From positions 1-22,604 of the forward strand of contig JAFGIT010000271.1 in the NCBI GenBank assembly GCA_016929465.1: a stretch of DNA of 22,604 nucleotides, written 5' to 3'. Under the pieces are notes generated by a model. It had not been told where the DNA came from, did no database searches, and saw only the letters and a list, made by a program, of their open reading frames with translations. Below are positions 7,076 through 21,997 of the stretch, in pieces (the stretch's first letter is position 1; each line of letters opens with the position of its first letter). Source of the DNA: JAFGIT01 sp016929465 [NCBI: Candidatus Coatesbacteria bacterium]. Lineage in GTDB: Bacteria > B130-G9. The translations under genes and the position numbers were made by a program.

Positions 7076-7131
7076 TACAACAATTATTGAAATCGAATTT
7101 GACAATCGAAAGGCATCGCAGGAGTTACCAA

Positions 7132-7548
7132 TTGGACAATATGGACCATCTGAGACAAGTTGAGGCCAGGAACGCCCCCCCAAAAGGGAGCGTCGTCGTT
7201 GTTGTTGCTTCGAATGACCTCGCTCAATACACGCGCATCAAGGAGCTCCTCGAGACCCAGGAATTCAGCTCTGTCGGTGTCCTTTCATCGAGTGATCCTC
7301 TGCCGGTTGAGAGGCTGATCAAGCCATCCGCCTTTGTCCTTCAGATAGATCCCGAGCCGGGACTTGCGTCCGAGCAAATATCCCATTTGCGGTTACAGGA
7401 TCCCGATGTGCCTATCCTGTTCGCCGTGGAGCAGAACAGCGACCAACTGGAGATAAGTATCAGGCAGTTGGGTATTCAATACTACATGCTCCTTCCGGCA
7501 GATACGAACGAGCTAGCGATCGTCGTAAACAGCCTTGCCAGGGCATAA
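7132..7548 (+). CDS. Degenerate receiver-domain protein
   Basis: This is a 138-aa single-domain protein with the alternating strand/helix pattern of a CheY-like receiver: SVVVVVASNDL, then SAFVLQIDPEPG, DVPILFAVEQ and IQYYMLLPADTNEL. The usual acidic pair after strand 1 is replaced (ASND). The strand-3 Asp is displaced or absent (IDPEPG), and the strand-5 Lys-Pro is replaced by LPAD. It is therefore probably a pseudo-receiver that cannot be phosphorylated normally. The TTG start at 7132 has GCAGGAG seven bases upstream; ATG 7141 is the alternative. A sigma-54 promoter precedes it. It sits between the sigma-54 regulator and the pilin gene, so a part in pilus regulation is plausible but unproven. 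Confidence 0.75.
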   Translation: MDNMDHLRQVEARNAPPKGSVVVVVASNDLAQYTRIKELLETQEFSSVGVLSSSDPLPVERLIKPSAFVLQIDPEPGLASEQISHLRLQDPDVPILFAVEQNSDQLEISIRQLGIQYYMLLPADTNELAIVVNSLARA

Positions 7549-7820: not shown

Positions 7821-7930
7821 AATCCGGCGGTAGAGTCTGATTCTGCAAAACAGCCTATGGAAGGCGAGAGTGGAAGATTCTCCCTTCTATTGGGGCTTCA
7901 CGGGCGGTCCGATAAATAAGAAGGCTAAAG

Positions 7931-7946
7931 TGGCATGAGACCTGCT
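7931..7946 (+). promoter_or_regulatory. Sigma-54 promoter of the major pilin gene
   Basis: TGGCATGAGACCTGCT has GG at 7932-7933 and GC at 7944-7945, with the required ten bases between. The first seven bases are identical to the sigma-54 promoter at 7060. Transcription would begin near 7957 and read into the pilin gene after about 195 nt. Confidence 0.82.
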
Positions 7947-7956
7947 CCGATAAGTG

Positions 7957-8151
7957 GTGACAGAAATGAGAGTTAATCACGGAGGTAGCCAAAGAAGCTC
8001 TTAGCTTCTCGGATTACGGAATGTGAAGGGAGGTGCTGACGGATAGCCCCGGGGAATCCCCGGACTTCAGACGACTTATTTGTGCTGATTGGAACATATT
8101 GCCCTTATTCAGGGCGACCCCACATCTTTTTATTAATAGGAGGAAGAACAA
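7957..8151 (+). promoter_or_regulatory. Long structured 5' leader of the pilin mRNA
   Basis: The leader predicted from the sigma-54 start is about 195 nt and contains three hairpins. The first is AGAAGCT/AGCTTCT with a three-base loop (7993-8009), enclosed by an outer TAATC/GATTA pairing. The second is CCGGGG/CCCCGG with an AAT loop (8048-8062). The third is GCCCT/AGGGC (8101-8115). AGGAGG (8138-8143) and the GTG start follow. The three stems could stabilise an abundant pilin mRNA or act as a regulatory RNA. I do not recognise a known riboswitch; the conserved cores of the cyclic-di-GMP class I element are missing. Confidence 0.4.
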
Positions 8152-8559
8152 GTGGGACAGCAACAGCTACTGTTGATCGTATTGAGTATCATCATCGTTG
8201 GTATCGCGGTGGTCATCGGTCTGGGTCTCTTCAGCGAGGGTGCTGATCAGGCGAATATCGACCAGGTCGTTCAAGACGTCGTAGCCATGGGCGCGAAGGC
8301 TCAGCAGTTCTATATGAAGCCGACTGCGCTTGGTGGTGGCGGCCAGAGCTTTACGACTATGGCCATTGAGGATGTTGGCTCCTCGTCCAACAGAAATGGC
8401 GACACCTATACGGTCACTGGCGGAAGCGACACGCAGGTTACCATCACCGGGACATGCGTAACCGCCAAGTGTGACGATGACGCCACTCCGGTGACAGTTG
8501 TCGGGACGGTGACACCTGTTGATGTATCTACAGTAATCAACAGAACAGCGTCCACCTAG
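8152..8559 (+). CDS. Major type IV pilin-like subunit with two-residue leader
   Basis: This 135-aa protein begins MGQQQLLLIVLSIIIVGIAV: a two-residue leader (cleavage predicted after Gly2), three Gln, then a ~22-residue hydrophobic helix as in pilins. The usual Glu at mature position 5 is absent (Leu). A segment AQQFYMKPTALGGGGQSF (50-67) follows, which I recall as typical of this pilin family in FCB-type phyla. Cys102 and Cys107 may form a disulphide. The GTG start is fixed by AGGAGG eight bases upstream and by an in-frame TAG at 8137-8139, which rules out a longer leader. Its own sigma-54 promoter, a long leader and a terminator directly behind fit a highly expressed structural subunit. Confidence 0.85.
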   Translation: MGQQQLLLIVLSIIIVGIAVVIGLGLFSEGADQANIDQVVQDVVAMGAKAQQFYMKPTALGGGGQSFTTMAIEDVGSSSNRNGDTYTVTGGSDTQVTITGTCVTAKCDDDATPVTVVGTVTPVDVSTVINRTAST

Positions 8560-8575
8560 GCACGATTTGCGAATG

Positions 8576-8608
8576 AGGCAGGCCCAACCTGGTTTGGGCC
8601 TGCCTTTT
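8576..8608 (+). terminator. Intrinsic terminator between pilin and pilus machinery
   Basis: AGGCAGGCCCAA (8576-8587) pairs perfectly with TTGGGCCTGCCT (8594-8605) around a six-base loop; the closing T and the next three give a run of four T, then CT. Placed just after the pilin stop, it should end most pilin transcripts and let a fraction read through into the downstream genes, setting a high pilin to machinery ratio. Confidence 0.85.
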
Positions 8609-8634
8609 CTATCTAAAGCAAGGGGCAAGGACTT

Positions 8635-9984
8635 ATGGCAGAGTTCAGATACCATGGGATGAGCGCCGCCGGCCGACCCGTTCAGGGAATGCTCGCGGCA
8701 AAGAACAAAAAGGCGGCACAGCTGAAGCTCAAAGAGCTGATGCGTGCGAAGCGATTCAATCTCACCAGCCTGGAGAAAAAGCGGACTTACACCTATAAGG
8801 TTCAGAAAGGCGCCGATAAACCCGTAATCGGTGAACGAAAGGCCTACTCATCTGATGAGCTTACCCGCGCGCTACGCGCAATCGGATATAACGTTATCTC
8901 GATACGTCGGAAGTGGCTGGATTTCAATATGGGACCTCCGACCAACGACGTGGTCATGTTCATCCGACTGGGCGCAGACCTCTTGCGCGAGAAACTGCCA
9001 TACGACGAGGTTCTGCAGCTTCTGGGCAATGACATCCAGAACAAGCCCCTGCGCGAAGCGATCAAAGAGATCAGCAACGACCTCAAGGAGGGCAAGGAGG
9101 GCAAAGAAGTATTCGGGAAGCAGGAAGCAGCCCTCGGACGTTTCGCGGCTCACATGCTCGGCGTCGCCTCCACAAGCGGTAACATGGTAGAGATATACGA
9201 GAGCACCGCGAAGTTTCTGGAAAGGAATCAGCAATTCAAGAAGAACCTGAGAAGTGCGCTGGTTATGCCTGCGGTCACGGTCTTCTTACTTATGTGTGCC
9301 GTGTTCTTCTACGTAGGCTACATATTCCCGGAGACAGCCGAGATGTTCCTGAAATTCGACATGGTGCTGCCTCCGATGACCCAATTTACGCTCGATTTGA
9401 GCCACTTCATCACGGACAATATCATTATACTTCTGGTGTCCCTCATCGTACCCATAATCGTCGGCCTGAAGTTCGCCCTAAGCAACAAAGGCCGGCTGTT
9501 CGTCGACAGATATATAATAAAGCTCCCGATCATCGGCTCGGTCCTGCACAAGACGAGCATCGAGATATTCTGCAGGGTGTTCACAGCCCTCTATTCAGGC
9601 TCCGGCGAGAACATCGAGGTAATCAAGACCGCTTCCGAGGCCTGTCGAAATCGCTACATGGAGAAGCAGATCAAGGAGATTACTCTTCCGATGATGATCA
9701 AGGAGGGCAAGGGCCTCGTCGAGTCGTTGGACAAGACTGGCGTATTCACAGAGAACGCGCTGAACAGGCTCAAAGGCGGCGCCGAGACGGGAACACTCCG
9801 CAAGACGGCGCTGCAGGTTGCGAACTATTACGAGAAAGAAACGACCTACAGGATGAAGGCAATCATCGACTGGGTGCAGGTCTTCATCGCGTTCTATGTA
9901 TTGATAATCATGACCGCAATTACGGTCGTATCGTCCGAGACTGCGATCATTTCGCCTAAGAGACCAGGGGTTACAACGAACTAA
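8635..9984 (+). CDS. pilC: PilC/GspF inner-membrane platform protein
   Basis: This 449-aa polytopic protein forms the inner-membrane platform on which the assembly ATPases act. Membrane segments lie near 207-231 (ending FFYVGYIF), 262-283 (IILLVSLIVPIIVGLKFAL) and 414-436. Two T2SSF domains (about 105-225 and 310-435) are visible, the second with the typical RLKGGAETGTLRKTALQVANYYEKE. The first ~95 residues hold two short units of the N-terminal module (GRPVQGMLAAKNKKAAQLKL and GERKAYSSDELTRALRAIGY) instead of one. AAGGA precedes the ATG. The stop codon overlaps the next start by one base (TAATG), so PilC and PilB are translationally coupled. Confidence 0.92.
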   Translation: MAEFRYHGMSAAGRPVQGMLAAKNKKAAQLKLKELMRAKRFNLTSLEKKRTYTYKVQKGADKPVIGERKAYSSDELTRALRAIGYNVISIRRKWLDFNMGPPTNDVVMFIRLGADLLREKLPYDEVLQLLGNDIQNKPLREAIKEISNDLKEGKEGKEVFGKQEAALGRFAAHMLGVASTSGNMVEIYESTAKFLERNQQFKKNLRSALVMPAVTVFLLMCAVFFYVGYIFPETAEMFLKFDMVLPPMTQFTLDLSHFITDNIIILLVSLIVPIIVGLKFALSNKGRLFVDRYIIKLPIIGSVLHKTSIEIFCRVFTALYSGSGENIEVIKTASEACRNRYMEKQIKEITLPMMIKEGKGLVESLDKTGVFTENALNRLKGGAETGTLRKTALQVANYYEKETTYRMKAIIDWVQVFIAFYVLIIMTAITVVSSETAIISPKRPGVTTN

Positions 9985-11768
9985 TGACACCGTCTTCTCC
10001 GCAGGCACGATTCGGAAGTACGCTCATCGAGAATGGCGTTATAGATCAGGAGACGCTGGACAAGGCGCTCCAGATCCAGGGCATGGAGGTTGACTCCAAC
10101 CGGCGCAAGCTCGGCGAGATACTCGTTAGCGATCTCGGCATCGACCGGGACAAGGTCTATAGAGAGATCGCGAATATCTACGCCTTCCGCACCGAGGAGC
10201 TCACGGAGGACGACCTCGAGGAGGACCGCATTCGGTTCATCTCCGATGTGATGGAGGGCGTGAGTGGTGAGATGAGAGGCTACCTATTAAATAAGAAGGT
10301 GCTTCCATACAAGCTCCACTCCGTCAAGCACGGTGTGCTCATCGTGGTCTGTCCTGACCCGACCGACCGCGAGGTGCAGAGCCTCGCCACGGAATTCGGC
10401 TATCGGCGCTATGAAATCGCCTATATGCGTGTTGAGGATATCGTGACACTTGCAAGCAAACTGGTCCCTGAGGAGGAGGAGTTCCTCAAGCTAATCGAGC
10501 AGGCCAACGATGCGGTTGAGACGATCGAGGATACCGATACCGAATTCGACGAGGAGGCGCTCGAAGCCGAGATCAACAAGAGCCTTCTGACTAACCTGGT
10601 CGAAGGATGCCTGGTCGAGGCCGTGCGCAAAGGCGCTTCTGATATTCACGTCATACCGAAACCCGGAAACATCACCGAGTTCTATTTCCGCGTGGATGGC
10701 AAGCTCCAGCTCTGGTATCGACACGAGGGGACGAAGCCGGAGGCGATCTCGGCGGTCATCAAGGACCGGTCGAAGAACGTTGACCGGTTCGAATGGGATG
10801 CCGCACAGGACGGCTTCATCCAGAGAACGATCGACAATTATCTGATGCGTTTCCGTGTCTCGATAATGCCGATTGTCGGCCAGGAGCTGAGACGCAAGCT
10901 GGAAAGCATCGTCATCAGAGTCATCGATGACCGCAAGTTGATAACGGATTTCGAGGACCTCGGCTTCCAGAAGAAGGCAAGAGAGGACTTCATCAAGGCC
11001 ATCGGCAAACCGCAAGGGATCGTAATCCTCACCGGACCGACCGGTAGTGGTAAGAGCACGACACTGGTCGCGGCGCTCAGTCATGTTATGAATCCGAGCA
11101 TCAACGTCGTGACCGTCGAGGATCCGGTCGAGTATAACATCCCCGGAGCGAGGCAGATAAAGCTCGGGCCGAGGCTCGATTTCGACCTGGCTATCCGCTC
11201 TATTCTTCGTCATGACCCGGATGTCGTGATGGTCGGTGAGATGCGAGATAAGACGACGGCGGAGATCGCGGTTAAGATGGCCAACACAGGGCACTTGACC
11301 TTCACAACGCTTCACACGAACGACGCCATCAGCGCCGTCGCCAGGCTCTATAAGATGGGAATCGAGCCATTCTTGCTGGCTTATTCGATAAATATCGTCG
11401 TTGCGCAACGTCTCGTCAGAACACTCTGCAAGGAATGCAAGAGACCGATTACGGACCTCGACCACGCAGCTCCTCTGGAGCTCGGCTTCACCGAGGAGGA
11501 GATCCAGCAGACGACTTTCTACGAGCCGGTTGGCTGCAAGAAGTGTCGGCTTGGCTACAGGGGACGTATTGCGATACATGAGGCATTCTATTTCACAAAG
11601 GCGATCCGGCAGCTGGTGTATCAGTCCTCGAAGGATATTGACGAGGACGCCTTGCGCACACAGGCAATCAAAGATGGAATGCTCACGCTTCGCGCATCCG
11701 GGCGCGAGCGCATCAGAAAGGGCTTAACGACATTAGAAGAAATAGCGTTTGCCACCGCAGAAGACTAA
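9984..11768 (+). CDS. pilB: PilB/GspE assembly ATPase
   Basis: This 594-aa hexameric motor would power fibre extension. An N-terminal MshEN/T2SSE_N-like domain (about 8-150; FGSTLIENGVIDQETLDKAL) is followed by an acidic linker and the N2 domain (GASDIHVIPKPG, YFRVDGKLQL). The ATPase core has Walker A GPTGSGKS (351-358), Asp box VEDPVEY, Walker B DPDVVMVGEMRD (411-422) and His box TGHLTFTTLHTND. The zinc-type tetra-cysteine motif of assembly ATPases is intact (Cys482, Cys485, Cys518, Cys521). All catalytic motifs are present, in contrast to the second ATPase at 15232. The ATG overlaps the pilC stop by one base. Confidence 0.94.
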   Translation: MTPSSPQARFGSTLIENGVIDQETLDKALQIQGMEVDSNRRKLGEILVSDLGIDRDKVYREIANIYAFRTEELTEDDLEEDRIRFISDVMEGVSGEMRGYLLNKKVLPYKLHSVKHGVLIVVCPDPTDREVQSLATEFGYRRYEIAYMRVEDIVTLASKLVPEEEEFLKLIEQANDAVETIEDTDTEFDEEALEAEINKSLLTNLVEGCLVEAVRKGASDIHVIPKPGNITEFYFRVDGKLQLWYRHEGTKPEAISAVIKDRSKNVDRFEWDAAQDGFIQRTIDNYLMRFRVSIMPIVGQELRRKLESIVIRVIDDRKLITDFEDLGFQKKAREDFIKAIGKPQGIVILTGPTGSGKSTTLVAALSHVMNPSINVVTVEDPVEYNIPGARQIKLGPRLDFDLAIRSILRHDPDVVMVGEMRDKTTAEIAVKMANTGHLTFTTLHTNDAISAVARLYKMGIEPFLLAYSINIVVAQRLVRTLCKECKRPITDLDHAAPLELGFTEEEIQQTTFYEPVGCKKCRLGYRGRIAIHEAFYFTKAIRQLVYQSSKDIDEDALRTQAIKDGMLTLRASGRERIRKGLTTLEEIAFATAED

Positions 11769-11789
11769 GAGAAAACAGGAGGGAGAAAA

Positions 11790-12272
11790 ATGAGTTCAGG
11801 GCAAATGATACTTGCTTTGGGGGCGATAGTTATGCTCTCGACGCTGGCTCTTACCCTCAACAGCATCATGTTGGACGGTAACAAAACAATGATGGAAAGC
11901 GAGCTTTACATATCTGGTACCTCGGTGGCCCAGTCATTTATCGAGCACGCGGCGATCCTGGCCTTTGATGCCTCGGTTGGCGTCCAGGACCCCTCGACCT
12001 TTCCGGGGACGTTCACATCGCCATACAGCCTGGGTCCAAAAGTCGGGGAGAACTATCCCAACTTCAGCGACGTGGATGATTTCAACGGCTATTCAGCAAC
12101 AGTTTCAACAACAAGAGTAGATTTCATAGTGAATATAACCGTCCAGTATTGCGACGAGGACGGTAATGTTTCGGGCAGTCGCACCAACTTCAAGATCATG
12201 ACCGTAAATGTAAGTAGTCCTTTCCTTCCGACAGATGTAACCGCAACTCGGATCTTCTCGTACAGCATATAA
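11790..12272 (+). CDS. PilV/GspI-like minor pilin
   Basis: This 160-aa pseudopilin candidate begins MSSG followed by QMILALGAIVMLSTLALTLN, a four-residue leader with Gly before the hydrophobic helix. The Ser-Gln context and lack of Glu5 match the other subunits here. The body contains SVAQSFIEHA and VDDFNGYSATV, features seen in PilV/GspI-type minor subunits. GGAGG stands nine bases upstream, and no alternative start exists back to the in-frame stop of pilB at 11766. It is the first of four minor-subunit genes; assignment rests on order and fold features rather than on strong motifs. Confidence 0.75.
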   Translation: MSSGQMILALGAIVMLSTLALTLNSIMLDGNKTMMESELYISGTSVAQSFIEHAAILAFDASVGVQDPSTFPGTFTSPYSLGPKVGENYPNFSDVDDFNGYSATVSTTRVDFIVNITVQYCDEDGNVSGSRTNFKIMTVNVSSPFLPTDVTATRIFSYSI

Positions 12273-12304
12273 GGACTTCGGACATTAGAAGGAGGTGAAG
12301 CCAG

Positions 12305-12868
12305 ATGGCATTAGCTGACATAGTTGGAACAGCGATTGTATCGGGGATTCTCATCCTCATGGTTATTGGACTCACGGGAAGTGTATCCGAAACCACCACC
12401 CAGCAGATGCTCGATGTCAACACTCAGGGCGCTCTCACAACTATCAAGAGCATGATCGAGTATGACTTTATGAAGATGGGATATGAACAGGCTCCGGGGA
12501 CCGCGATCACTTCCATAGGAACAGATAGCATAACCTTTTGGGCTGGGATAGATGCGAATAGTGATGGCATCGAGGACGGAGTCAACACAATCAATTACAC
12601 ACTGAGTGATACCTCGCAGGCATCTGCGACCCAGAATCCGAATGACCGGATACTCTACCGGACCGTGGGAGCGGCGACGCCGGTCGCGGTTGCCATGGGC
12701 GTGACCGCTTTCTCACTCAGATATTTCGACGCTACCGGGAACATCACGATGAACGCGCCCGACGTGAAGTCGATCGAGGTCAAAATGACCGTTCAGAGCA
12801 CGATGGCGCTCGACGGGAATTACGCTGAGGCCGCCTGGGAGAAGCGGATCAGCCCGAGAAACCTGTAG
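12305..12868 (+). CDS. PilW/GspJ-like minor pilin
   Basis: This 187-aa protein begins MALADIVGTAIVSG, then ILILMVIGLTGSV, a hydrophobic head beginning at residue 4. The body shows the marks of PilW/GspJ subunits: MIEYDFMKMGYE (57-68), ITFWAGIDANSDGIEDGVN, NPNDRILYRT and a late VTAFSLRYFDATGN. The DANSDGIED stretch may bind a metal ion. A perfect AAGGAGGT stands eight bases before the ATG, and an in-frame TGA (12296-12298) excludes a longer leader. The cleavage site is less clear than in the neighbours (after Gly14 or earlier). Confidence 0.78.
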   Translation: MALADIVGTAIVSGILILMVIGLTGSVSETTTQQMLDVNTQGALTTIKSMIEYDFMKMGYEQAPGTAITSIGTDSITFWAGIDANSDGIEDGVNTINYTLSDTSQASATQNPNDRILYRTVGAATPVAVAMGVTAFSLRYFDATGNITMNAPDVKSIEVKMTVQSTMALDGNYAEAAWEKRISPRNL

Positions 12869-12923
12869 AAATGGGCCGAGAGAATCAATGAAAAGGTCTG
12901 AGTTGATATAGGAGGTCCATGAA

Positions 12924-13967
12924 ATGGGAAGAGTATGTTTGATCGCCGTCTTGGGGCTTGCAGTATCGGCTTCCTTCTTGATGATGGGTGCCCATGAAAA
13001 GGGTAGCAGCGCTGTGCTGAATTCCAGTAATTCCTTCACCGATACTGGAGCTGGAAATTTGGCTCATTCCGCTGCGAATTTGGCATTGAAGAACATAACC
13101 GCGGACCCGAGTTGGACCACCACCGGCGAGAGCAGAAATCTCTCGGACGGCCCCTGCTACTTCAGCTGCGATAGGGTACCGGCATCGGTCAACTCGATGA
13201 TCCAGGCTTCCGGGACATACTCACAGAGCAGTCACGGGGTGAGAGTGCTCGTTCAGACGCGTGCGCCGAATCTCAGGTCAGCAATTACTGCCAATCCGCC
13301 GGTTGACACGCTCGGGACCTTTATCGTGGATGGACGCGATTATGACGAGACTGGGAATATCATCCCTGGCCAGGGCGGACTTGCGGTTGAGTGCTCCAAT
13401 GATGTTACTCGAAGAGGTTCCTCAGTCTATGGTGGGACAAACGCAAATGGGGACGATTTCGCCCCAACAACAACCTATGATCCCAGCATAGTAAAGGACA
13501 ATTCGACCTTCGATGGCGGCTTCCCCGATAATCCGGACGCGGTAATCGGGGTTCCCGTAGGCACCCTCAAGACGCGGGCCATGAGCGGGGTTAGTGGAAG
13601 CCAATACACGACAGATCCCTCGACGCTCTCAATGCCCTTGAGCGGGGTAACATACGTTGACCTGCCCAGCGGTGGACAGTGGAATGATGCGACACTCAGT
13701 GGTTCGGGAATTCTGGTCGTCCACAGCCCCACGAAGGACGCGATCATCAAGAACATGTATGGCACCTTCAAGGGCATCATCATCGCCGACGACGTGGACA
13801 AAATACACGGTACAATCATAGGCAACCTGACCGTGCCGGGAGACGTTGCGACGGGCAACTGCATCGGCAACGGCGAGGGTCAGGTTCTTTTCAGCAGCTA
13901 TCAGATCTTCCAGGTCCTGAAGGACCTCAACAATCCAGACTTAAAAATCATCTCCTGGTGGGAATGA
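12924..13967 (+). CDS. PilX/GspK-like minor subunit, copy 1
   Basis: This 347-aa protein starts MGRVCLIAVLGLAVSASFLM: two-residue leader ending in Gly, then a hydrophobic helix, as in the major pilin. The helix is followed by LAHSAANLALKNI, a PilX-type N-terminal helix. The large domain has VDGRDYDETGN (possible metal-binding loop), DDFAPTTTYD and a repetitive strand region ending GTFKGIIIADDVDKIHGTI. Two Cys (in FSCDRVPAS and GNCIGNGEG) are conserved in the paralogue at 14160-15227 and may form a disulphide. GGAGG lies eight bases upstream and an in-frame TAG (12909-12911) fixes the start. It is probably a tip or initiation subunit. Confidence 0.75.
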   Translation: MGRVCLIAVLGLAVSASFLMMGAHEKGSSAVLNSSNSFTDTGAGNLAHSAANLALKNITADPSWTTTGESRNLSDGPCYFSCDRVPASVNSMIQASGTYSQSSHGVRVLVQTRAPNLRSAITANPPVDTLGTFIVDGRDYDETGNIIPGQGGLAVECSNDVTRRGSSVYGGTNANGDDFAPTTTYDPSIVKDNSTFDGGFPDNPDAVIGVPVGTLKTRAMSGVSGSQYTTDPSTLSMPLSGVTYVDLPSGGQWNDATLSGSGILVVHSPTKDAIIKNMYGTFKGIIIADDVDKIHGTIIGNLTVPGDVATGNCIGNGEGQVLFSSYQIFQVLKDLNNPDLKIISWWE

Positions 13968-13970
13968 TCG

Positions 13971-14147
13971 ATGAAATCGGCTGATCCAGTTCACAATGAG
14001 GGCATTTTGCTGACAGCAGGGCTCATTGCTCCTGAAACAGGGGCATCTCGACGGCTGGACAGCATCGGAATGGAAATTGACCAAAGAATCGAAGGCAATC
14101 ATCCGATAAGCAATATGCACTACCTATTAGCCTTAGAAGACCGATAG
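13971..14147 (+). CDS. Possible small ORF between PilX-like paralogues
   Basis: A 58-aa frame opens at ATG 13971, three bases after the stop of the upstream gene, with GGTGGGA about seven bases before it. It runs without stop to TAG 14145-14147, which lies against the GGAGG of the next gene. It begins MKSADPVHNEGILL and ends YLLALEDR, soluble and without Cys or membrane segment. It fills almost the whole gap in an otherwise tightly packed operon. I recognise no family, and an open frame of this length can arise by chance at this GC content. Confidence 0.35.
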   Translation: MKSADPVHNEGILLTAGLIAPETGASRRLDSIGMEIDQRIEGNHPISNMHYLLALEDR

Positions 14148-14159
14148 GAGGACTTTCAC

Positions 14160-15227
14160 ATGGGCAGAGCAATGACAATCACTGTTCTGGGGATCGCGGT
14201 CGCCATGTCATTTTTGACGATGGGAGCGCAGGAGAAGAGGAATACCGCCATGTCCAACGCCTGTAATTCATTTAGTGTATGCAGCGCGAGGAATCTATCA
14301 CATTCTGGCGCGAATGTCGCGCTCAAAAAGATCACTGAAAACATAGCATATCGTGGCACGACTTCCTCTAACTACTCGGATGGGTCCTTCACAGCTAGCT
14401 GCTCCAAGGTGCCGGCTACGACAACCGCAAAGATCACTTCAATCGGGACATATCAGCAGAACACCCACAAGGTGGAAATCGTGTTGGAGCTCGCGCCAGG
14501 TGGCTTCAAATCAGCAATAACCGCAAAGCCCTATGTCCAGACTCTCGGGACACTGGATGTCGATGGCAGGGACTACGATGAGAATGAGAACATTATTCCG
14601 AACCAGGGCGGGCTTGCGATCTTAAGCACACAGACGATAAACAGAGGTGGTAATTCGAAGTACGGAGGAACCACATCTGAGGGAATCGACTATGCGCCTT
14701 CTACGAGCTTCGATTCGGGCTTGATTGAGGAGAATGCGATATTCGAAGGTGGCTTCCCTGGCTCACCAGACGCAGCTGTCAAAGTCACAGATGGAATGCT
14801 GAAGGCGATCGCCCAGAGTGGCGCTGGCGGAAGCCAATACGCCACGGACCCCGGAGATATAACAATCCCCCTGAGAGGTGTCACCTATCTCGAATTGCCC
14901 GACAACGGGACCTGGAACGCGCCGAACTTCACATATTGCAATTGCGGCTTCGATTACCACAGTTTCGGGATTCTGGTCGTCCATAATGCAAACAAGAACG
15001 CTCGCTTGAAGAATATGCGGGGCAGTTTCTACGGGATTATCATCGCCGACGATGTGGACAAGATACACGGCAAGGTGACGGGCAATGTGACCATCATCGG
15101 TGACTACCCACGAGGCAACTGCGTCGGTAATGGAACTGGCGACGTCCACTACAGCTCGTTTTACATCTCCAAATCGCTCAAGGACCTGCTCAACAAGCAG
15201 CCTGTAATCGTATCCTGGTGGGAGTAG
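14160..15227 (+). CDS. PilX/GspK-like minor subunit, copy 2
   Basis: This 355-aa paralogue of the product of 12924-13967 starts MGRAMTITVLGIAVAMSFLT and shares the same blocks: LSHSGANVALKKI, VDGRDYDENEN, GGTTSEGIDYAPSTS, GSQYATDP, GIIIADDVDKIHGKV and the final VSWWE. The two paired Cys (ASCSKVPA; GNCVGNGTG) are kept. It has an insertion with extra cysteines (NFTYCNCGFDYHSFG) where copy 1 has a short SGSG loop. GGAGG lies eight bases upstream and an in-frame TAG (14145-14147) rules out a longer leader. Tandem duplication followed by divergence is evident; the two may take different places in the pilus tip complex. Confidence 0.76.
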   Translation: MGRAMTITVLGIAVAMSFLTMGAQEKRNTAMSNACNSFSVCSARNLSHSGANVALKKITENIAYRGTTSSNYSDGSFTASCSKVPATTTAKITSIGTYQQNTHKVEIVLELAPGGFKSAITAKPYVQTLGTLDVDGRDYDENENIIPNQGGLAILSTQTINRGGNSKYGGTTSEGIDYAPSTSFDSGLIEENAIFEGGFPGSPDAAVKVTDGMLKAIAQSGAGGSQYATDPGDITIPLRGVTYLELPDNGTWNAPNFTYCNCGFDYHSFGILVVHNANKNARLKNMRGSFYGIIIADDVDKIHGKVTGNVTIIGDYPRGNCVGNGTGDVHYSSFYISKSLKDLLNKQPVIVSWWE

Positions 15228-15231
15228 TCAA

Positions 15232-16488
15232 TTGGAAACAGAGGCCTTGATTCAAGATACCGATGTTCTCTCCGAGGCGAGGGGAATACTAAATCGCCTG
15301 TCGTCCCAGGTGCCAAGCTCGCACGAGGGCGTCGAGAGACAGATGTACATCGGTAAGCTGCTCAACGAGCTCCACATCAACCAGCGGCAGGTTCTCAAGA
15401 GCCTGGTCGATACCTGGCTGGATAGGACCGTTGAGATGCAGGCCTCTGATATCGACGTCGGCAGCCACGGATGCGAGGGCAGCATCTGGATGCGTGTCTT
15501 CGGCTTCAAGAGGCCGTGTCCGGATCTCGGATCATTCTCTATCGATGAAACCGATATTCTGGTCCAGAGCCTTCTGATGGATAGGCAGAGAGAGCACCTC
15601 TACGAGTGGCGAAACCTGGACTTCTCCTACATGATCTATCACAACGGGACCAGGATCAGATTCAGGGGTGATATGTATTTTGACTTCGATCACCTCGCCA
15701 TGAACATGAGGCGCATCAACGATTTCATCTACCCGTTCAAGGACCTTGGCTTCCATCCGGATGTAGCGAAGGCGCTATCTCTCACTCACGTGAAGCAGGG
15801 CCTGATATTGATTACGGGAATCACCGGTTCGGGTAAGAGCACGACTCTCGACAGCATAATCGACGCAAATAACAAGACAGTTGATGCGCACGTCGTAATA
15901 ATCGGCAGCCCAATCGAGAACATCCACAACAGCAACAAGTGCCTGGTTCGTCATCGCGAGGTCGGACGTGACGTCATGTCGTTCAAGGAGGGCGCGGTTC
16001 AGGCCCTTCGTCAGGACCCCGATATCATAGTAATCGGCGAGATGCGTGATCCGGACACGATATTGACGTCTCTCGAGATAACAGACAGTGGTCACAAAGT
16101 GTTCTCGACACTCCATACAGGTTCGGCGGTGGAAAGCATCGACCGAATAATAGCGGAGTGCCCTACCACAGTCCAGGACAGGGTGCGTATGCGTCTCGCG
16201 GACGTTCTGACAGTAATTGTCTCCCAGAAGCTCGTCCCGAGCGTGACGGGCAAGCTTCAGCTCGCGAAGGAAGTGCTTCTGGTCAATTCCTCGGTCCGGG
16301 CAGCAATCAAGAACAATAATACGGGCGAAATATACCAGATGATCTTCGAGTCTCAGAATGAGGGGATGATCACCATCGAGCAGGACCTATATCGCCTTTA
16401 TAGACTTAAAAATATAACGAAAGAGAATGCAATGAACTTCGCGAATAACAAGAAGAGGTTAGCCGAGTTGCTTCGGAGGGAGCTATGA
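15232..16488 (+). CDS. PilT-like second ATPase with altered Asp box
   Basis: This 418-aa T2SSE-family ATPase lacks the tetra-cysteine motif and carries a PilT-like block AAIKNNNTGEIYQMIFES (compare the AIRNLIRE motif), so it is probably a retraction-type motor. Walker A GITGSGKS (196-203), Walker B DPDIIVIGEMRDPDT and His box SGHKVFSTLHTGSAVESID are intact. The Asp box reads IGSPIE (224-229) where PilT has EDPIE: both acidic residues are replaced by Gly and Ser. It is longer than usual PilT (about 350), with an extra N-terminal ~60 residues. The start is TTG at 15232 with GGGAG formed by the end of the upstream gene. The stop overlaps the next start (ATGA), so translation is coupled to PilM. 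Confidence 0.86.
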   Translation: METEALIQDTDVLSEARGILNRLSSQVPSSHEGVERQMYIGKLLNELHINQRQVLKSLVDTWLDRTVEMQASDIDVGSHGCEGSIWMRVFGFKRPCPDLGSFSIDETDILVQSLLMDRQREHLYEWRNLDFSYMIYHNGTRIRFRGDMYFDFDHLAMNMRRINDFIYPFKDLGFHPDVAKALSLTHVKQGLILITGITGSGKSTTLDSIIDANNKTVDAHVVIIGSPIENIHNSNKCLVRHREVGRDVMSFKEGAVQALRQDPDIIVIGEMRDPDTILTSLEITDSGHKVFSTLHTGSAVESIDRIIAECPTTVQDRVRMRLADVLTVIVSQKLVPSVTGKLQLAKEVLLVNSSVRAAIKNNNTGEIYQMIFESQNEGMITIEQDLYRLYRLKNITKENAMNFANNKKRLAELLRREL

Positions 16489-19064
16489 GGAAAGAGGCAA
16501 TAGGATTATCAATCGAGGGGACCGACATAAAGGTCGCCCACATCGGACTTTCTCATAAGGGTGTCATACTAAAGCGGCTCGAGGTTGCCAGGCTTCCGGA
16601 ACCGTTAGGCATCCCGACACAAGATGAGGAGATTGCGGACGAGGCTCTGGACGCCTTTGAGGAGGCGTTCGGTGAGGTGAGTTCCTCGACCGATTCACCC
16701 ATCGAGGTTGGCGAGGGTGGAGAACAGGCAGGCGAGGCTGACTCGTCTTCAGCGCTGCTCGGGATTCTCGCCGGCTACAATCTGACCAAGGCGAAGATCG
16801 GTGTCAACTTGCCCGAGGATGCGATCAGCTTCTATACGTTGAGTGACACTTTCGCCGTTAAGGGACGCAAGTTGAAGAGGGCCATTATAGAGATGGTCTC
16901 TCCCAGGCATGATGGCCCGGTGTCGCCCGATATGGTTGAATACATCAAATCAGCCGACAAGAACCTGACTTGCCTGATCTGCGATCGTCCGCCGGTCTTT
17001 CTCGATGTGCTGAAGGAGATCAAACCATTCCTGGCGCACAATAAGCCCTTCATCGGCTTGATCGACTCGATGGACACCGCTCTGATGAGCCTTGTCCGAG
17101 CGAACCACGAGCTGAAAGAAGAGCAGATCACTGCGATCATCTACGTGGGGCCGGAGAGCACACGGACCATCATTATGAAGGGCAGAGATTACCTGATGAT
17201 GCTGCCCTCGATTCAGGAGGGCGCGAATTCTCCGGACCTGCTCAACAAAGTATATAGCAAGATGCTTCTGGAGCAGGACGAAGGCGGGCTTCCCGAGATC
17301 ACTCACTTGGTCCTGGCCGGCGAAGGAGATATGGACGAAGCCAAGGAGTTCTTCGTCGATAAGATGCCTGATGCGGTAATTGAGGCAATCAAATACGGAA
17401 AGTTCGTCGGCAGCGAGATGGAGCCATCGAAGGTGCCGGCTCCCCTTTCGAGCTTTGCACTTCCGCTCGCTCTCGCGAGGAAGGCCCTCGAGCCGACCAA
17501 TCCCAGCTACTATGAGACCGATTTCACTCCTGAGTACATGAAGGAGTCGCAAAAGCCATTCCGCATAGCGTGGCATGGCCTTATGTCTCTCTTCATCATC
17601 TTCGCGATGAGCCTGCTACTGGTCATCAAGGGCGGCTACAACCTGGCGGAGATGGAGGACCTGGAGGAGGATACGTTCAATCACAATCGCCTTACGAAGC
17701 TTGCGCAGCCTCTGCTCTACGAGATTGATACGCTCAATGCGCAGATCAACGAATACGGGTCCGAGATCGCGCAGCTTGCCTTGCTGGCGCAGGATTCTCA
17801 CGTCTGGAGTGAATCGCTGCAGAAGATCTGCGACTTGACAGAGCGCTGTGATTCGCTGTGGCTTGTGAACCTGTCCTCATCAGATGATATGGGTTACATC
17901 CTGAGAGGCAAATCTCGCACACGCGACAAGATAACCGCGTTCGCGAGCGCATATCAGAACTCGTATCTGGATACGGTCAGTCGCGGCATGATTCGCGATT
18001 ACCGTCTCTGGGACTTCACGATGAGAGTGAAGTTCCCCGACGTTCTTCATCCACAGACGTACCTGGCGATGGTCAAGGAGCACGGCAAGGACGGCTACGG
18101 GCAGAACGCACACACCCAGGACAATACGTTCGATTTGTCTGGAGATATGCCGGGCCTCGCGATGTCCGGGCAGATGATGCCTGGCGGCGATATGCAGGCG
18201 ATGGTCTCCCAGATGGGTATGCAGAGCAGCGATATGGTCAGCAGCATGCTGAAGACGGGCTTCAACCTCTACTATGATCAGGCTTCTCGCGTTGCCAACA
18301 GCCCGAAGCTCGCTATGCTCAAAAAAGATCAGCTTCGGCAAGAGGCCGAACTGAGAGAGTCATTGCTTCAGAAAAAGCAAGAGCTCGATGAGCAGAAGAT
18401 AGCGGCGTCCGAGAAGAGCCTCGAGGAGCAATACCTGGGTCCGGAGCCTGACGGCATGCAGATGGAACCTGCAGACATCTTCTTACCTGCGCCGCGGACG
18501 GAATCCGAGGCGGAGCCTGACGTGATAATACCCGAGGCGCCCAAGAGTGATTCGCGGGACGCAGCCGATAGCAAGCCCGGAGTTATCGCTTCGACCGCCA
18601 AGCCAAAACCGATGAATAAGCAAGAGCAGCCCACCGTCAGCGCCACGCAGAAGCCCGAAGAGCCCAAGCGCGAGAAGGCGGCGAACTCGCCGGTCAAATC
18701 CGATGAGAACTACGATAGGGCCATGGACCTCTTCAAGGCCGGGCAATATGAGCAGGCGGCGGAGCTATTCAAGGACATGGTCGCCAAGGGCGGGCCGGCA
18801 ACAGATTGCAGGGCCGGCTACTGGCTTGGCCATTGCCTCTATGGAATGGGTGAATTCCAGGCAGCAATCGAGCAATTCAAGAACTCCGAAAGCTGCAAAG
18901 AGGAAGGCGTCGAGGATGGCGTTCTGTTCATGTTGGGCAATTGCTACCTTAGGCTTGGCGATGAGCAGAGCGCGAATGAGAAATATGCCAAGCTGCTGCA
19001 AGAGTATCCAGACAGCCGTTTCGGATCGATCGCTTCTGCAAGAACGAGAGCCTACGGGAAATAA
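16485..19064 (+). CDS. pilM: PilM-PilN fusion with C-terminal TPR domain
   Basis: This 859-aa protein joins parts normally encoded separately. Residues 1-360 resemble PilM, the cytoplasmic actin-like protein (IGLSIEGTDIKVAHIG; VNLPEDAISFYTL; LVLAGEGDMDEAKEFF). A single membrane helix (367-386, MSLFIIFAMSLLLVIKGGYN) and the periplasmic region 387-545 match PilN (coiled coil, then WLVNLSSSDDMGYILRGKSRTRDKITAF). A Met/Gln-rich stretch, a charged coiled coil (about 605-645) and a Pro-rich linker lead to TPRs (742-859; YDRAMDLFKAGQYEQAAELF, YWLGHCLYGMGEFQAAIEQF), as in YbgF. The first two phosphate-loop acidic residues of actin-like folds are replaced (GLSIEG; IYVGPE), so ATP binding is doubtful. 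It overlaps the upstream gene by four bases. Confidence 0.88.
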   Translation: MRKEAIGLSIEGTDIKVAHIGLSHKGVILKRLEVARLPEPLGIPTQDEEIADEALDAFEEAFGEVSSSTDSPIEVGEGGEQAGEADSSSALLGILAGYNLTKAKIGVNLPEDAISFYTLSDTFAVKGRKLKRAIIEMVSPRHDGPVSPDMVEYIKSADKNLTCLICDRPPVFLDVLKEIKPFLAHNKPFIGLIDSMDTALMSLVRANHELKEEQITAIIYVGPESTRTIIMKGRDYLMMLPSIQEGANSPDLLNKVYSKMLLEQDEGGLPEITHLVLAGEGDMDEAKEFFVDKMPDAVIEAIKYGKFVGSEMEPSKVPAPLSSFALPLALARKALEPTNPSYYETDFTPEYMKESQKPFRIAWHGLMSLFIIFAMSLLLVIKGGYNLAEMEDLEEDTFNHNRLTKLAQPLLYEIDTLNAQINEYGSEIAQLALLAQDSHVWSESLQKICDLTERCDSLWLVNLSSSDDMGYILRGKSRTRDKITAFASAYQNSYLDTVSRGMIRDYRLWDFTMRVKFPDVLHPQTYLAMVKEHGKDGYGQNAHTQDNTFDLSGDMPGLAMSGQMMPGGDMQAMVSQMGMQSSDMVSSMLKTGFNLYYDQASRVANSPKLAMLKKDQLRQEAELRESLLQKKQELDEQKIAASEKSLEEQYLGPEPDGMQMEPADIFLPAPRTESEAEPDVIIPEAPKSDSRDAADSKPGVIASTAKPKPMNKQEQPTVSATQKPEEPKREKAANSPVKSDENYDRAMDLFKAGQYEQAAELFKDMVAKGGPATDCRAGYWLGHCLYGMGEFQAAIEQFKNSESCKEEGVEDGVLFMLGNCYLRLGDEQSANEKYAKLLQEYPDSRFGSIASARTRAYGK

Positions 19065-19096
19065 GGAAATCAAGATAGTCAATAGGGAGATGTAAG

Positions 19097-19987
19097 ATGA
19101 GCAACGCGCTTAGAAGCACGATAGCGATCGCCGTCATCTGGCTGATCTTGCTCTTGGTGGGCGGTTGGTACGTCTATTACAAGCAGGCCGATGATCTCGA
19201 GGCAATTCGCGAGGAAAATAAAGAAGCACACGAAGCTTTTGACGAGATGCAGGCCAAGGTGGATAGCCGCCAGGTTGTCAAGGCGACGCTGGGGAAACTG
19301 AAAGAGCAATGGCATGAGCGGAAGAAGGTCATCCCTGTAACGGAGGATGCCAGGACAACCTATAACTACTTCAACTGGCTGGGTTCGCAATCGCGCTCAC
19401 CACTGATGTATGACTTTATAGTCCTTTCGGAGAGCCCGGATGAGACGCCACCGTCGAGAACGTATCAGCTGCGGGGGGAGGACTCTTACGAGAGCCTCTT
19501 CAATTTCATTTACTATCTGGAGAACCACCCGCTGCTATATAAGATAGAGAAGATTAACTTAGACAGCACTTCCGTTGGCGAGAACGCGGAGGGGGATGTG
19601 CGTGGAGTTGGATTCGACATGTATGTGAAAGTCTATTACGGATCTTCTCCATCGCTCGATAATACTTATGCCTCCCGCGAGGTTGAGGCTCCCCCGAAGC
19701 AGATAGACCCATTCTATCCGCTGATACTAGAAAAGCTTCCGCAAAATCCGAAGGGTCTTGTCATTGTTGACGAGTCGAAGCTCCAGGCCCTGACGAAAAC
19801 AACCGCATTCATCGTTGACCAGACGGGCAAGATGGTCACGCTGGAGATCGGTGACGAGGTCTATCTGGGCTACCTGACCAGAATAAACACAAAGAAGAAC
19901 GAATGCGAATTCACGCTCAACCTGGGCGGGATCATAGAGAAGTATACAATGCAACTCAACTTCGACAGTCAAAGGGGAGGGAAATGA
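19097..19987 (+). CDS. pilO: PilO-PilP fusion
   Basis: This 296-aa bitopic inner-membrane protein has a helix at 8-28 (TIAIAVIWLILLLVGGWYVYY), a coiled coil (30-75) and a PilO-like ferredoxin-fold region (about 85-190; SYESLFNFIYYLENHPLLYKIEKI). The C-terminal ~70 residues (from about 226; TTAFIVDQTGKMVTLEIGDEVYLGYLTRI...) look like the small beta domain of PilP/GspC that contacts the secretin. PilP is normally a separate lipoprotein, so this gene seems to carry both roles. AGGGAG stands eight to nine bases upstream. Its stop overlaps or closely adjoins the secretin start. The product would link the PilMN fusion to the pore. Confidence 0.85.
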   Translation: MSNALRSTIAIAVIWLILLLVGGWYVYYKQADDLEAIREENKEAHEAFDEMQAKVDSRQVVKATLGKLKEQWHERKKVIPVTEDARTTYNYFNWLGSQSRSPLMYDFIVLSESPDETPPSRTYQLRGEDSYESLFNFIYYLENHPLLYKIEKINLDSTSVGENAEGDVRGVGFDMYVKVYYGSSPSLDNTYASREVEAPPKQIDPFYPLILEKLPQNPKGLVIVDESKLQALTKTTAFIVDQTGKMVTLEIGDEVYLGYLTRINTKKNECEFTLNLGGIIEKYTMQLNFDSQRGGK

Positions 19988-19989
19988 TA

Positions 19990-21303
19990 ATGAAGAAGGC
20001 GACTTGCCTGGTATTTGTGCTGGTTCTATTCGCCGCAATATGCGTCGCGCAGGACGCCCCTCAGGGTAGCAAGCATCCGTTTGTTCCCAAGGAGTATCCG
20101 ATCGAGCACACCTCTGTTGACGAGATGGTTTCGCTGTCATCGGGGACTCCATTCGCGCAGGCGATGTTCATAATCTCGAAGTTCTCGAACAAATTCGAGA
20201 AGAAGGTCATCATCGATCCGATCAAGCATAAGGGCAATATCAGTGTAGATATTGAGAACATGCATTGGAAGAAGGCCTTCGAGATGATCCTTCGTGCCAA
20301 TGGGCTCTGGTATGTTAGCTATGAGACATACTACGAGGTCGTCGAGCCTGTTGACGAGGTTGCCACGGCAAAACCCAAAACCGATGACACAAAGAAGAGC
20401 ACTCTAACGGAGAATACACGCGAAGTCCGGATCAAGGCCACCTTCTTCGAGGGCGATAGGCACTTCCTGCACGAGCTCGGAATTGACTGGAGGACCATCA
20501 GAGCTGGCTCTCTCAATGTTGATGCGAGAAGCGCGGGCCACCAGAAGCTCTGGGATTCCGCAGTGTATAATGCGCTTGAGACATACTCTGCTGGCTTTGA
20601 GAGGCAGTTCGGCAGCGTGACCATCCAGGCTCTATTGGACACTCTGGAGAGCGCCGAAAAGGGACGCATAATCGCCACTCCCGAAGTCGTTGTCATGGTT
20701 GGCAAGTCAGCAAAGGTGCTTGTGGGCCAGGAATTCGCGGTGAACACCCGTGACTTCGCTGGCAATATAGTCACAGAATTCTACGAGACTGGCACGATCA
20801 TGGAGGTCGTCCCCACCGTATTCACGGACCGGGCGGGCAAGGAATTCATTCATCTGGCCGTCTCCGTGATACGCTCGAGCCTGAGTGATCCGGTTAACCT
20901 CACGATCAACAAGACTGAGGCCAACTCGTCGATTCTGTTGAACGACGGCGAGGATACGGCAATCGCGGGCCTATATTCGACCGAGAGGAAGGTAGGAAGA
21001 AGCGGTGTGCCTCTCCTGAAGGACCTGCCCTGGTGGGTGCTTGGCCTGAGATATGTCTTCGGCTTCGACCGTGTCGAGAAGCAAGACAAGGAGCTCGTGA
21101 TCCTTCTGAATGCACAGCTGGTTCCCAAGCTCAACGACCGTATCGCTCAGGAAGAGGGCGCATCTGACTTCGATAAGCTCAACAAGGAGCTAAATGATAC
21201 AGTCAAGCCGCTCTGGAACAGGCCCGGAGACGGGAGCCCGTCATTCTACGAGATAAAGGCTGACAAGAAGAAGAAAGCCGAAAAGGACGACAGCGAAGAC
21301 TAG
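19990..21303 (+). CDS. pilQ: PilQ/GspD-type secretin, short form
   Basis: This outer-membrane pore subunit has 437 aa from ATG 19990. That start is chosen because GGGGAGG ends nine bases before it; ATG 19984, which overlaps the upstream stop, is the alternative. A signal peptide (MKKATCLVFVLVLFAAICVAQ) is followed by one STN/N0-like domain (about 55-115; KVIIDPIKHKGNISVDIENM) and the secretin core (about 200-375). The core has ELGIDWRTI, GRIIATPEVVVMVGKSAKVLVGQEF, the signature GVPLLKDLPWW (339-349) and ELVILLNAQLVP. Typical PilQ or GspD proteins exceed 600 residues with several N domains, so most of the periplasmic vestibule is missing here. The Lys-rich acidic tail (KKKKAEKDDSED) is unusual. 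It is the last gene of the operon. Confidence 0.9.
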   Translation: MKKATCLVFVLVLFAAICVAQDAPQGSKHPFVPKEYPIEHTSVDEMVSLSSGTPFAQAMFIISKFSNKFEKKVIIDPIKHKGNISVDIENMHWKKAFEMILRANGLWYVSYETYYEVVEPVDEVATAKPKTDDTKKSTLTENTREVRIKATFFEGDRHFLHELGIDWRTIRAGSLNVDARSAGHQKLWDSAVYNALETYSAGFERQFGSVTIQALLDTLESAEKGRIIATPEVVVMVGKSAKVLVGQEFAVNTRDFAGNIVTEFYETGTIMEVVPTVFTDRAGKEFIHLAVSVIRSSLSDPVNLTINKTEANSSILLNDGEDTAIAGLYSTERKVGRSGVPLLKDLPWWVLGLRYVFGFDRVEKQDKELVILLNAQLVPKLNDRIAQEEGASDFDKLNKELNDTVKPLWNRPGDGSPSFYEIKADKKKKAEKDDSED

Positions 21304-21332
21304 TAACTGTAGGCCATATAACCAACAAACAG

Positions 21333-21366
21333 AAGGGCGGCCCGGTGGCTGCCCTTTTTCTTTTTT
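21333..21366 (+). terminator. Intrinsic terminator of the pilus operon
   Basis: AAGGGCGGCC (21333-21342) pairs with GGCTGCCCTT (21347-21356), one G-T pair, around a CGGT loop. A T-rich tail runs to 21366, broken by a single C. It lies 30 bases after the secretin stop and closes the operon. Confidence 0.92.
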
Positions 21367-21997
21367 CCATAGGATGACGAAGACGCAGCAGTGGCGCTGC
21401 CTGTCCATCAGATCGCGAGTGACTCGAAATTGAGGCTAATCTGGCCAGTATTTATTTCAACAAATTGCTACCCAATTAGTCTGCTTTGCTCAGTTCATGG
21501 CAGACCGGGGCCTCATTTGACTAGCCAAAGTGCCATATTGCGATCAGCAGGATGTCCCCCCGACAACGAAAGATCATAGAAGTCCTCGACGGCGCATCCG
21601 ATTTCAGAGGCTCTCTAATAGATGAAATCGAAAGGGGATTGAGGGATTCCCCGAACGCCATTCCCCGCATAGGTGGGGGCAGGCCTTGGAGGCTGTAAAA
21701 TAAGTCGAATCACCCGTCGATTAGATGCATCGACCTGTCTCCGCCTGTTTATATATTGTGGCAAGCCTGTTTATAGGCACAAGGTGTAGCTTGGGCTTTC
21801 CGAGGCTGCCCAAAGAAGAGACTGCGGTCGCCGCGAATTCGAATTTATTTTACAGCCTCCATGCCCCGTCCCTACACGGCGAAAAATCCGACTTATTGGA
21901 CAGCCTCTTCAATCAGTATGTAACACACGACATAGACACAGACACACCTATTTCGACCAGAGTGAGAATCCCCAGATCAATAACGATGAAAGTCAGG
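21367..21997. other. Non-coding gap with repeats
   Basis: This 631-bp stretch between the converging pilus operon and the M20 gene has no supported gene. Short frames at 21391-21579 and 21725-22012 lack ribosome sites and recognisable sequence. It contains the inverted repeat family at 21688-21907, a GTCGAT/ATCGAC hairpin (21715-21733), two copies of CCTGTTTATA (about 21741 and 21765) and a CCCC/GGGG hairpin (about 21663-21678). It may be remains of a small mobile element. Confidence 0.5.
21688..21907. repeat. Inverted repeat pair plus third direct copy (~22 nt)
   Basis: The left arm (21688-21710) read in reverse complement is nearly identical to the right arm (21837-21860): both contain TTATTTTACAGCCTCC preceded by ATTCGA and differ only at the join. 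A third copy (about 21887-21907, ending ACTTATTGGACAGCCTC) lies in the same orientation as the right arm with three changes. The arms enclose 126 bases, reminiscent of a MITE or a degraded insertion sequence end, but no target duplication or transposase was seen. Confidence 0.7.

Follow-up and report, generated by a model that had tools for sequence, protein, structure and literature searches.

The DNA examined here, which we refer to as the window, is a stretch of 22,604 nucleotides from a Candidatus Coatesbacteria assembly (contig JAFGIT010000271.1, our contig C413; 3.19 Mb in 423 contigs, 86% complete), and it carries an operon for a machine of the type IV filament superfamily, which we compare within the phylum across four Coatesbacteria genomes (G000, that of the window, to G003). 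We are fairly confident that this machine belongs to a distinct clade whose pili are assembled from pilins made without a leader, with no need of a prepilin peptidase. At the level of sequence, the case is founded on pilins that begin with their helix, on PilC, PilB and PilT lineages of the clade's own, and on a peptidase that goes undetected in most of the carriers examined; from these features we infer pilus formation and independence of the peptidase, and peptidase-free assembly appears likely.

Gene content of the operon

On the forward strand the gene cluster opens with an NtrC-type response regulator, which starts at 5467, and a terminator-like hairpin closes it at 21358. The regulator (5467..6867) has receiver, sigma-54 activation and Fis helix-turn-helix domains by Pfam and occupies the same place in other Coatesbacteria loci; it is followed by a small protein of putative role (7087..7548) with weak similarity to a receiver domain (Response_reg, E 0.07). 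The major pilin (8152..8559; 135 residues) starts at a GTG codon with MGQQQLLLIVL, apparently without a leader, its start being placed by a Shine-Dalgarno sequence and an upstream in-frame stop and its identity by its predicted fold and a geopilin profile match. Next come the PilC/GspF platform protein (8635..9984; PF00482, E 3.1e-29) and the PilB extension ATPase (9984..11768; PF00437, E 9e-100), both also placed by trees, and residues 9-60 of PilB hold a weak MshE-type cyclic di-GMP motif (29.8 bits, below the cut-off of 38). Four putative minor pilins ensue: m1 (11790..12272), with at most four residues ahead of its helix, which returned no match in family searches and is PilV/GspI-like by position and appearance; m2 (12305..12868), probably leaderless by its start region and of the GspJ/PilW class by its AlphaFold2 (AF2) fold; m3 (12924..13967; 347 residues), PilX/GspK-like by position; and m4 (14160..15227), recognised by its start region and by comparison with its paralogue m3, to which it is 52% identical. 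The PilT-type retraction ATPase (15232..16488; TTG start) is assigned by its tree and by the NCBIfam model pilT_fam, at 303.2 bits against a cut-off of 319.1. The operon continues with a PilM-PilN fusion bearing a linker and a TPR tail (16485..19064), in which the evidence for PilM covers its C-terminal half, then with PilO plus an added C-terminal domain that is PilP-like by appearance (19097..19987), and closes with a short PilQ-like secretin of about 437 residues (19990..21303; PF00263, E 1.8e-25; PilQ structure 6ve2, E 1.6e-18). The start of the secretin was set by alignment: relatives begin at the methionine at 19990, a start at 19984 is also possible, and one at 19903 is wrong.

This gene set and order, first proposed in a sequence-only reading of the window, is borne out by Pfam and NCBIfam matches to PilC, PilB, PilT, the secretin and the TPR tail and by the predicted pilin folds, and so is the absence of a prepilin peptidase from the operon. 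That the genes often overlap holds for pilC and pilB (1 nt) and for pilT and pilMN (4 nt), whereas an overlap of pilO with the secretin gene depends on the start chosen. The other three Coatesbacteria genomes have the same order as far as their contigs reach, two being broken at or near pilB, and G001 and G003 carry a single m3/m4-type pilin in place of two. Searches of the window with Rfam models and for tRNA genes returned nothing.

That reading also took the condensation of four alignment proteins into two, together with the short secretin, as marks of a distinct clade. PilN is recognised through the PDB structure 3jc8 (E 1.5e-10; 6 of 19 members also match Pfam PilN at E<=0.1) and PilO through a PDB PilO structure (E 6.9e-5; 5 of 20 members match Pfam PilO at E<=0.1), and the part bearing PilM can be aligned, over a stretch that runs from C-terminal PilM across the transmembrane helix, with a 594-residue protein of G000 that carries PilM_2 (E 6e-8, probability 94.7). 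The condensation thus stands for PilN, PilO and C-terminal PilM; it is unconfirmed for the PilP half, where a search gave no match, and for N-terminal PilM, where no Pfam PilM match was obtained in 19 members. As a mark of the clade the fusions are weakened by a PilM-PilN fusion with both Pfam domains at another locus of the same genome (L054), and probably by another at L055, where PilM_2 lies in a 594-residue protein. Against PilQ models and structures the secretin scores higher than against those of GspD, and although it is indeed short in the window, lengths from 396 to at least 620 residues among relatives make this uninformative for the clade. As such, fusions and secretin length are less telling as reasons for a distinct clade than leaderless pilins found mostly in genomes without a detected peptidase.

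Pilins that begin with their helix

The AlphaFold model of the major pilin (predicted local distance difference test, pLDDT, 88) comprises a helix over residues 2-55 and a four-stranded head. The 17 structures that match it best all belong to type IV pilins, with Z scores of 10.3 (PilV), 9.3 (PilA4) and 8.9 (PAK), and residues 4, 4, 3 and 2 of the model fall on residue 1 of 1oqw, 1ay2, 5vxx and 6xxd, respectively. In a search of the PDB with the family profile the best geopilin match was 9egp (E 4.8e-4), and residue 9 of the profile aligned with residue 6 of 2m7g (E 0.0076), which we take to be the mature geopilin chain. Because of these two registers, from fold and from profile, the major pilin is placed at only about one to three residues beyond the length of a mature type IV pilin. 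For m2, whose sequence found no relevant match in the PDB, the class comes from the predicted fold (mean pLDDT 81; 65-72 over the first 30 residues, the N-terminus of the helix), with Z scores of 13.0 to TTHA1219 and 12.4 to an XcpV-XcpW complex entry that place it in the GspJ class. Both predicted models show the lollipop fold with an N-terminal hydrophobic helix that is expected within the superfamily.

The reading of the start does not depend on the window alone. Each of its five pilin genes has a Shine-Dalgarno stretch and an in-frame stop no more than about eight codons upstream, the major pilin reading MGQQQLLLIVLSIIIVGIAVVIG. Among 122 distinct MGQQQL proteins, chosen by that very motif, an upstream in-frame stop is present in 121 (median distance 3 codons), with no ATG, GTG or TTG between stop and start in 117 of these 121; none of the 122 has a charged residue (D, E, K or R) among its first 12, and a Shine-Dalgarno-like 4-mer (GGAG, GAGG or AGGA) lies just upstream in 77 of 120. 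Where pilins were instead found by profile (53 loci, 84 N-terminal matches, not dereplicated), 80 of the 84 begin with [M]GQQQ, the other four being likewise short (MANKELLL twice, MNSTQIVL and MEAQQILL), and 79 have no alternative start. The MGQQQ cap is invariant in an alignment of 62 rows selected for that start. Since the scan for relatives was seeded with MGQQQLLL, and the profile later used for one order and one family (below) was built from MGQQQ rows, this uniformity is partly one of selection. For comparison, the shortest possible leader of classical prepilins from the carriers' loci has a median of 9 residues (34 picks, a few doubtful; range 2-33).

A hydrophilic leader ending in Gly or Ala, as in class III signal peptides, is not seen in the pilins of the clade. 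The 22 families listed for the 62 pilins at E<=0.1 do not include N_methyl, the GspG model is listed for one of these pilins (E 0.0057), and each NCBIfam model fits at most one of them; with no Pfam or NCBIfam model describing this pilin, annotation that relies on recognisable prepilins likely misses it. The minor set of m1, m2 and an m3/m4-type pilin recurs in several lineages, and the membrane segment mostly begins within the first four residues. A mis-called start can be rejected for the window, on its Shine-Dalgarno sites and upstream stops, and for most relatives. From their sequences, the pilins of this clade are very likely leaderless.

Distribution of the prepilin peptidase

We searched for the peptidase as PF01478 over its cut-off, counted platform proteins as PF00482 matches (one PilC gives two) and took PF07963 for classical prepilins, in 50 carrier genomes that correspond to 50 of the 80 loci described below. 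The peptidase was over cut-off in 17 and not in 33 of the 50; at E<=1 a match appeared in 32, the additional ones being weak. Exactly two PF00482 matches, that is a single PilC, were present in 28 carriers, more in 21 and none in one, which was left out of the comparison (G318). A peptidase was found in 2 of the 28 single-PilC carriers versus 15 of the 21 with more (Fisher p 3e-6, only a guide because the carriers share ancestry), and classical prepilins in 1 of 28 versus 17 of 21. The two single-PilC exceptions are G306, where a classical prepilin adjoins the peptidase, and G329, where no classical prepilin was detected.

The single-record chromosome CP051242 (G317; labelled a metagenome-assembled genome) shows two PilC matches and neither a peptidase nor an N_methyl protein. 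In its order (68 genomes, requested at a completeness of at least 95%), the peptidase was found in 8 genomes and the pilin profile in 57, both together in 7; setting aside one match that is not N-terminal (G365, E 4.5e-6) leaves 56 clear carriers, 49 of them without a detected peptidase. With scores of 38-57 bits for the positives of this order, moderately divergent peptidases are detected and the sensitivity is fair. In the family of G328 (completeness of at least 90% requested), searched for the pilin, 51 of 57 genomes gave a match. Gaps in metagenome-assembled genomes are an unlikely cause of the missing peptidase, given the 68 genomes at this completeness, the single-record chromosome and the named isolates among the carriers. 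Because of the 49 of 56 absences and the split of 2 of 28 versus 15 of 21, the missing peptidase is probably the principal finding rather than a gap.

The sequence-only reading had asked whether a peptidase is encoded in the rest of the genome. We found none in the window genome or in G001 and one over cut-off in each of G002 and G003; for the first two an assembly gap is likely. Each Coatesbacteria genome has two to four other PilC-type genes, and the peptidase may serve those systems. Two further contigs of the window genome (C385 and C179) carry a T2SS-like (type II secretion system) and a T4aP-like (type IVa pilus) locus with classical prepilins, and no peptidase was found in the assembly; its lack despite these prepilins is probably a gap.

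A separate and widespread lineage

The machine has a PilB/GspE-family ATPase and a PilC/GspF-family platform, as expected within the type IV filament superfamily. A scan of genome contigs gave 470 stretches encoding a pilin relative, of which 80 were kept; these come from Coatesbacteria (including L078, a record named Candidatus Coatesbacteria), Balneolota, Ignavibacteriota/Ignavibacteria, Calditrichota, KSB1, Kryptonia and others, the Balneolota carriers including Aliifodinibius salipaludis, Gracilimonas mengyeensis, Fodinibius sediminis, F. halophilus and Balneola sp. EhC07. A narrower first pilin profile had matched 12 genomes in a draw of 290 relatives, 4 of them Coatesbacteria, and a search of plasmids for the pilin gave no match. 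The gene order, which the sequence-only reading had proposed to seek elsewhere, recurs across all the named phyla, several of which are little studied: pilA precedes pilC in 59 of the 80 loci, and pilC, pilB, pilT and pilMN follow one another in 47, with 36 continuing through pilO to the secretin. Fifteen loci show the pilin alone or nothing recognised, and in one an additional pilB-like piece interrupts the order. In Gracilimonas mengyeensis (G299, L092) pilin and PilC are separated by about 68 kb of the same contig, so that an intact operon is not universal.

Compared with the window PilC, 107 distinct PilC open reading frames (ORFs) fall into clade members at 381-983 bits and all others at no more than 122. 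In the PilC tree the clade's 34 rows lie on one side of a branch (Shimodaira-Hasegawa-like approximate likelihood-ratio test, SH-aLRT, 100), as do its 22 rows in the PilB tree (SH-aLRT 100) and its 21 in the PilT tree (SH-aLRT 99; a single reference PilT), all by a quick method on chosen rows (73 and 61) with few named references, few of them T4aP, and long-branch warnings. A distinct clade, as first proposed, is thereby supported within the reach of these references; of the earlier question whether PilB and PilC fall inside known clades, the trees give them branches of their own, with T4aP sparsely represented. By these sequences the PilC, PilB and PilT lineages are very likely distinct from those of other machines, and the clade may have originated from within a broad T4aP.

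The pilin also occurs in records labelled Deltaproteobacteria, Patescibacteria, Chitinophagaceae or Actinomycetota (L085, L104, L116, L154 and L156), which may reflect mislabelled bins or gene transfer. In Balneolaceae loci (L083, L086, L087, L090, L094, L119 and others) a protein of about 167 residues (KKFLKEPPLLL.NFHYEDVLEFL) lies between pilB and pilT, in the place held by minor pilins in other lineages; we guess that it resembles a cyclic-nucleotide-type sensor domain.

Alternative explanations and relation to known systems

Several points count against a peptidase-free machine with leaderless pilins. Foldseek alone gives only weak pilin matches (best E 0.26), and each of the window's five pilins has Gly or Ala at one of its first four positions. 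No peptidase was detected in six of the 21 multi-PilC genomes, four of which do have classical prepilins, and for this reason some peptidases must have been missed by the search or through assembly gaps. The 56 genomes count as carriers on the pilin alone, and with a peptidase in 2 of the 4 Coatesbacteria genomes the machine of the window's own phylum might use one. The pilus of this clade is known here from genes, its pilin N-terminus as read from them. Archaeal loci in which no peptidase was detected are already on record, for Nanoarchaeota in PMC4471445 and also in PMC9563170. PMC8258643 contained nothing relevant, and we recognised no description of such a system in the literature searched, a body that leaves most subscription journals and preprints outside it.

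The strongest of the alternatives, which we nevertheless consider unlikely, is that the operon encodes a T2SS-like secretion pseudopilus instead of a surface pilus. The machine resembles the T2SS (GspE/F/G-K/L/M/D) in the GspJ-like m2, in the PilM-N fusion that recalls GspL and in its single operon; the secretin and the GspL-like fusion would fit a pilus or a pseudopilus, and an independent secretion-type derivative was raised for the so-called Bacteroidetes T2SS in a 2019 study (PMC6668835). Unlike the T2SS, however, it has a PilT, whose lineage accompanies the machine, it has no leader, and its secretin is closer to PilQ than to GspD; the hairpin that follows the major pilin gene in all four Coatesbacteria genomes moreover suggests separate pilin expression. 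The so-called T2SS of Cytophaga hutchinsonii (chu_3191-3202) is likewise a type IV filament machine in Bacteroidetes, but differs in having its own adjacent Peptidase_A24 gene (PMC5553014), and on that description alone it is unlikely to be the same system.

It is improbable, in our estimate, that we are dealing with an ordinary T4aP or T2SS variant in which a minimal leader (MG, MSSG or MALA) is cut by a normal peptidase encoded elsewhere or shared. Such a view would draw on the peptidase in G002, G003 and 17 of the 50 carriers, and on the Gly and Ala residues of the window's pilins, as leaders are described as ending in Gly or Ala (PMC10191384). The MSH pilus offers a precedent for sharing, its locus too being reported without a peptidase of its own (PMC6668835); according to the same source, though, MSH loci always occur beside systems that supply the peptidase, while here none was detected in 26 of 28 single-PilC carriers, nor in 49 of the 56 clear carriers of one order. 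Furthermore, 10 of the 17 peptidase loci show a classical prepilin in the roughly 3 kb retrieved, several relatives' m2 pilins (MNVYLD, MNPSLL, MNLSLI) start without Gly or Ala, and the leaders given as examples in one review run from 6 to 26 residues (PMC4471445). That a different, non-homologous and unrecognised enzyme replaces PilD and trims or modifies the N-termini beyond the action of methionine aminopeptidase seems very improbable: the conserved MGQQQ cap could be its recognition motif, and the absence of PF01478 is uninformative on unrelated enzymes, but no multi-transmembrane protein recurs between pilB and pilT, the sole gap listed (one ORF with three transmembrane segments, in L130), and a pilin one to three residues above mature length leaves little to remove.

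Leaderless pilins assembled without a peptidase would set this clade apart from the T4aP, which it otherwise resembles in its homologous extension and retraction ATPases, platform, PilN, PilO, PilQ-like secretin and lollipop major pilin and, in Coatesbacteria, in the NtrC-type regulator and the sigma-54-like site; the PilT retraction ATPase that characterises the T4aP is among its components. It differs in pilins that appear leaderless and have no Glu5, in a genome usually without a detected peptidase, in separate PilB, PilC and PilT clades, in the single operon, in the PilM-N fusion and in the longer PilO. A class III leader and its peptidase are counted among the conserved machine parts by two reviews (PMC4471445 and PMC10191384), and the generic model of the 2019 superfamily study requires an ATPase, a platform and a major pilin and treats the peptidase as optional (PMC6668835). 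In the 2013 genome paper on Melioribacter roseus, pilT, pilQ, pilB and pilC were found, pilA and pilD were not, and the set was judged incomplete (PMC3534657); a leaderless, peptidase-free machine would explain the two missing genes in this organism, which is known to us here from that paper.

We regard it as probable that leader, prepilin peptidase, N-methylation and Glu5 were lost together in a widespread lineage whose pilins are assembled unprocessed, and on balance we favour a retractile surface pilus of such pilins, lacking Glu5, over a pseudopilus. In this scheme the pilin would be inserted with its N-terminus inside and its C-terminus outside, its own N-terminal helix serving as signal anchor. 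Methionine aminopeptidase removes a methionine ahead of Gly, and would here leave a free GQQQLLL end; the glutamine cap may then replace both the N-methylated end, with its N-terminal amine, and Glu5. PilC and PilB would draw subunits from the membrane into a helical fibre, with m1, m2 and the m3/m4-type pilins priming the tip as pilins of the GspI-J-K type do, and the fibre would exit via the PilQ-like secretin and be retracted by PilT. If this is true, leader cleavage would be an add-on of the better-known systems and not a mechanical need of the PilB/PilC motor, and a natural, widespread exception would make the need for pilin cutting and methylation, and the role of Glu5, directly testable.

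Expression in Coatesbacteria and further observations

A sigma-54-like -24/-12 site (TGGCATGAGACCTGCT) lies at 7931-7946 on the forward strand, about 206 nt ahead of the pilin start, and a second at 7060-7075, just upstream of the ORF at 7087..7548; the two matches in the window compare with 0.05 expected, for a pattern written after one site had been seen. The aligned block TGGCA...TGCTCCGATAAG is kept in the 4 Coatesbacteria genomes. Since only 6 of 141 clade pilin upstream regions have a strict match (0.05 in single-base shuffles), the site is lineage-specific; strict sites also precede the pilin in L079, L080, L085, L099 and L114. A terminator-like hairpin of 13 pairs, kept in the four genomes, stands between pilin and pilC (8575..8606) with a putative role in expression, and one of 12 pairs, from the hairpin scan, lies 3' of the operon (21331..21358). 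Only these two long hairpins are used here and not the counts, because over 7000-22604 the scan stayed near expectation (14 sigma-70-type sites versus 11.0 expected; 10 terminator-like sites versus 12.4). Site and hairpin together suggest separate, strong expression of the fibre subunit. The NtrC-type regulator presumably has a PilR-like role, and the pilin of Coatesbacteria is probably switched on by this adjacent regulator with sigma-54.

Elsewhere in the window genome (L076, contig C221, ORF 967-1842), a protein of 291 residues without the N-terminal pilin helix matches the pilin profile from position 22 in its C-terminal part, and may be a secreted protein with a pilin head; frames of 264-271 residues with a partial match to the profile occur in G301, G338, G347, G360 and G365. 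The reverse strand of the window (242-2191) encodes a protein of 649 residues that has a signal-peptide-like start and matches no Pfam family; G002 has a similar ORF close to its operon (L052, 394-2328).

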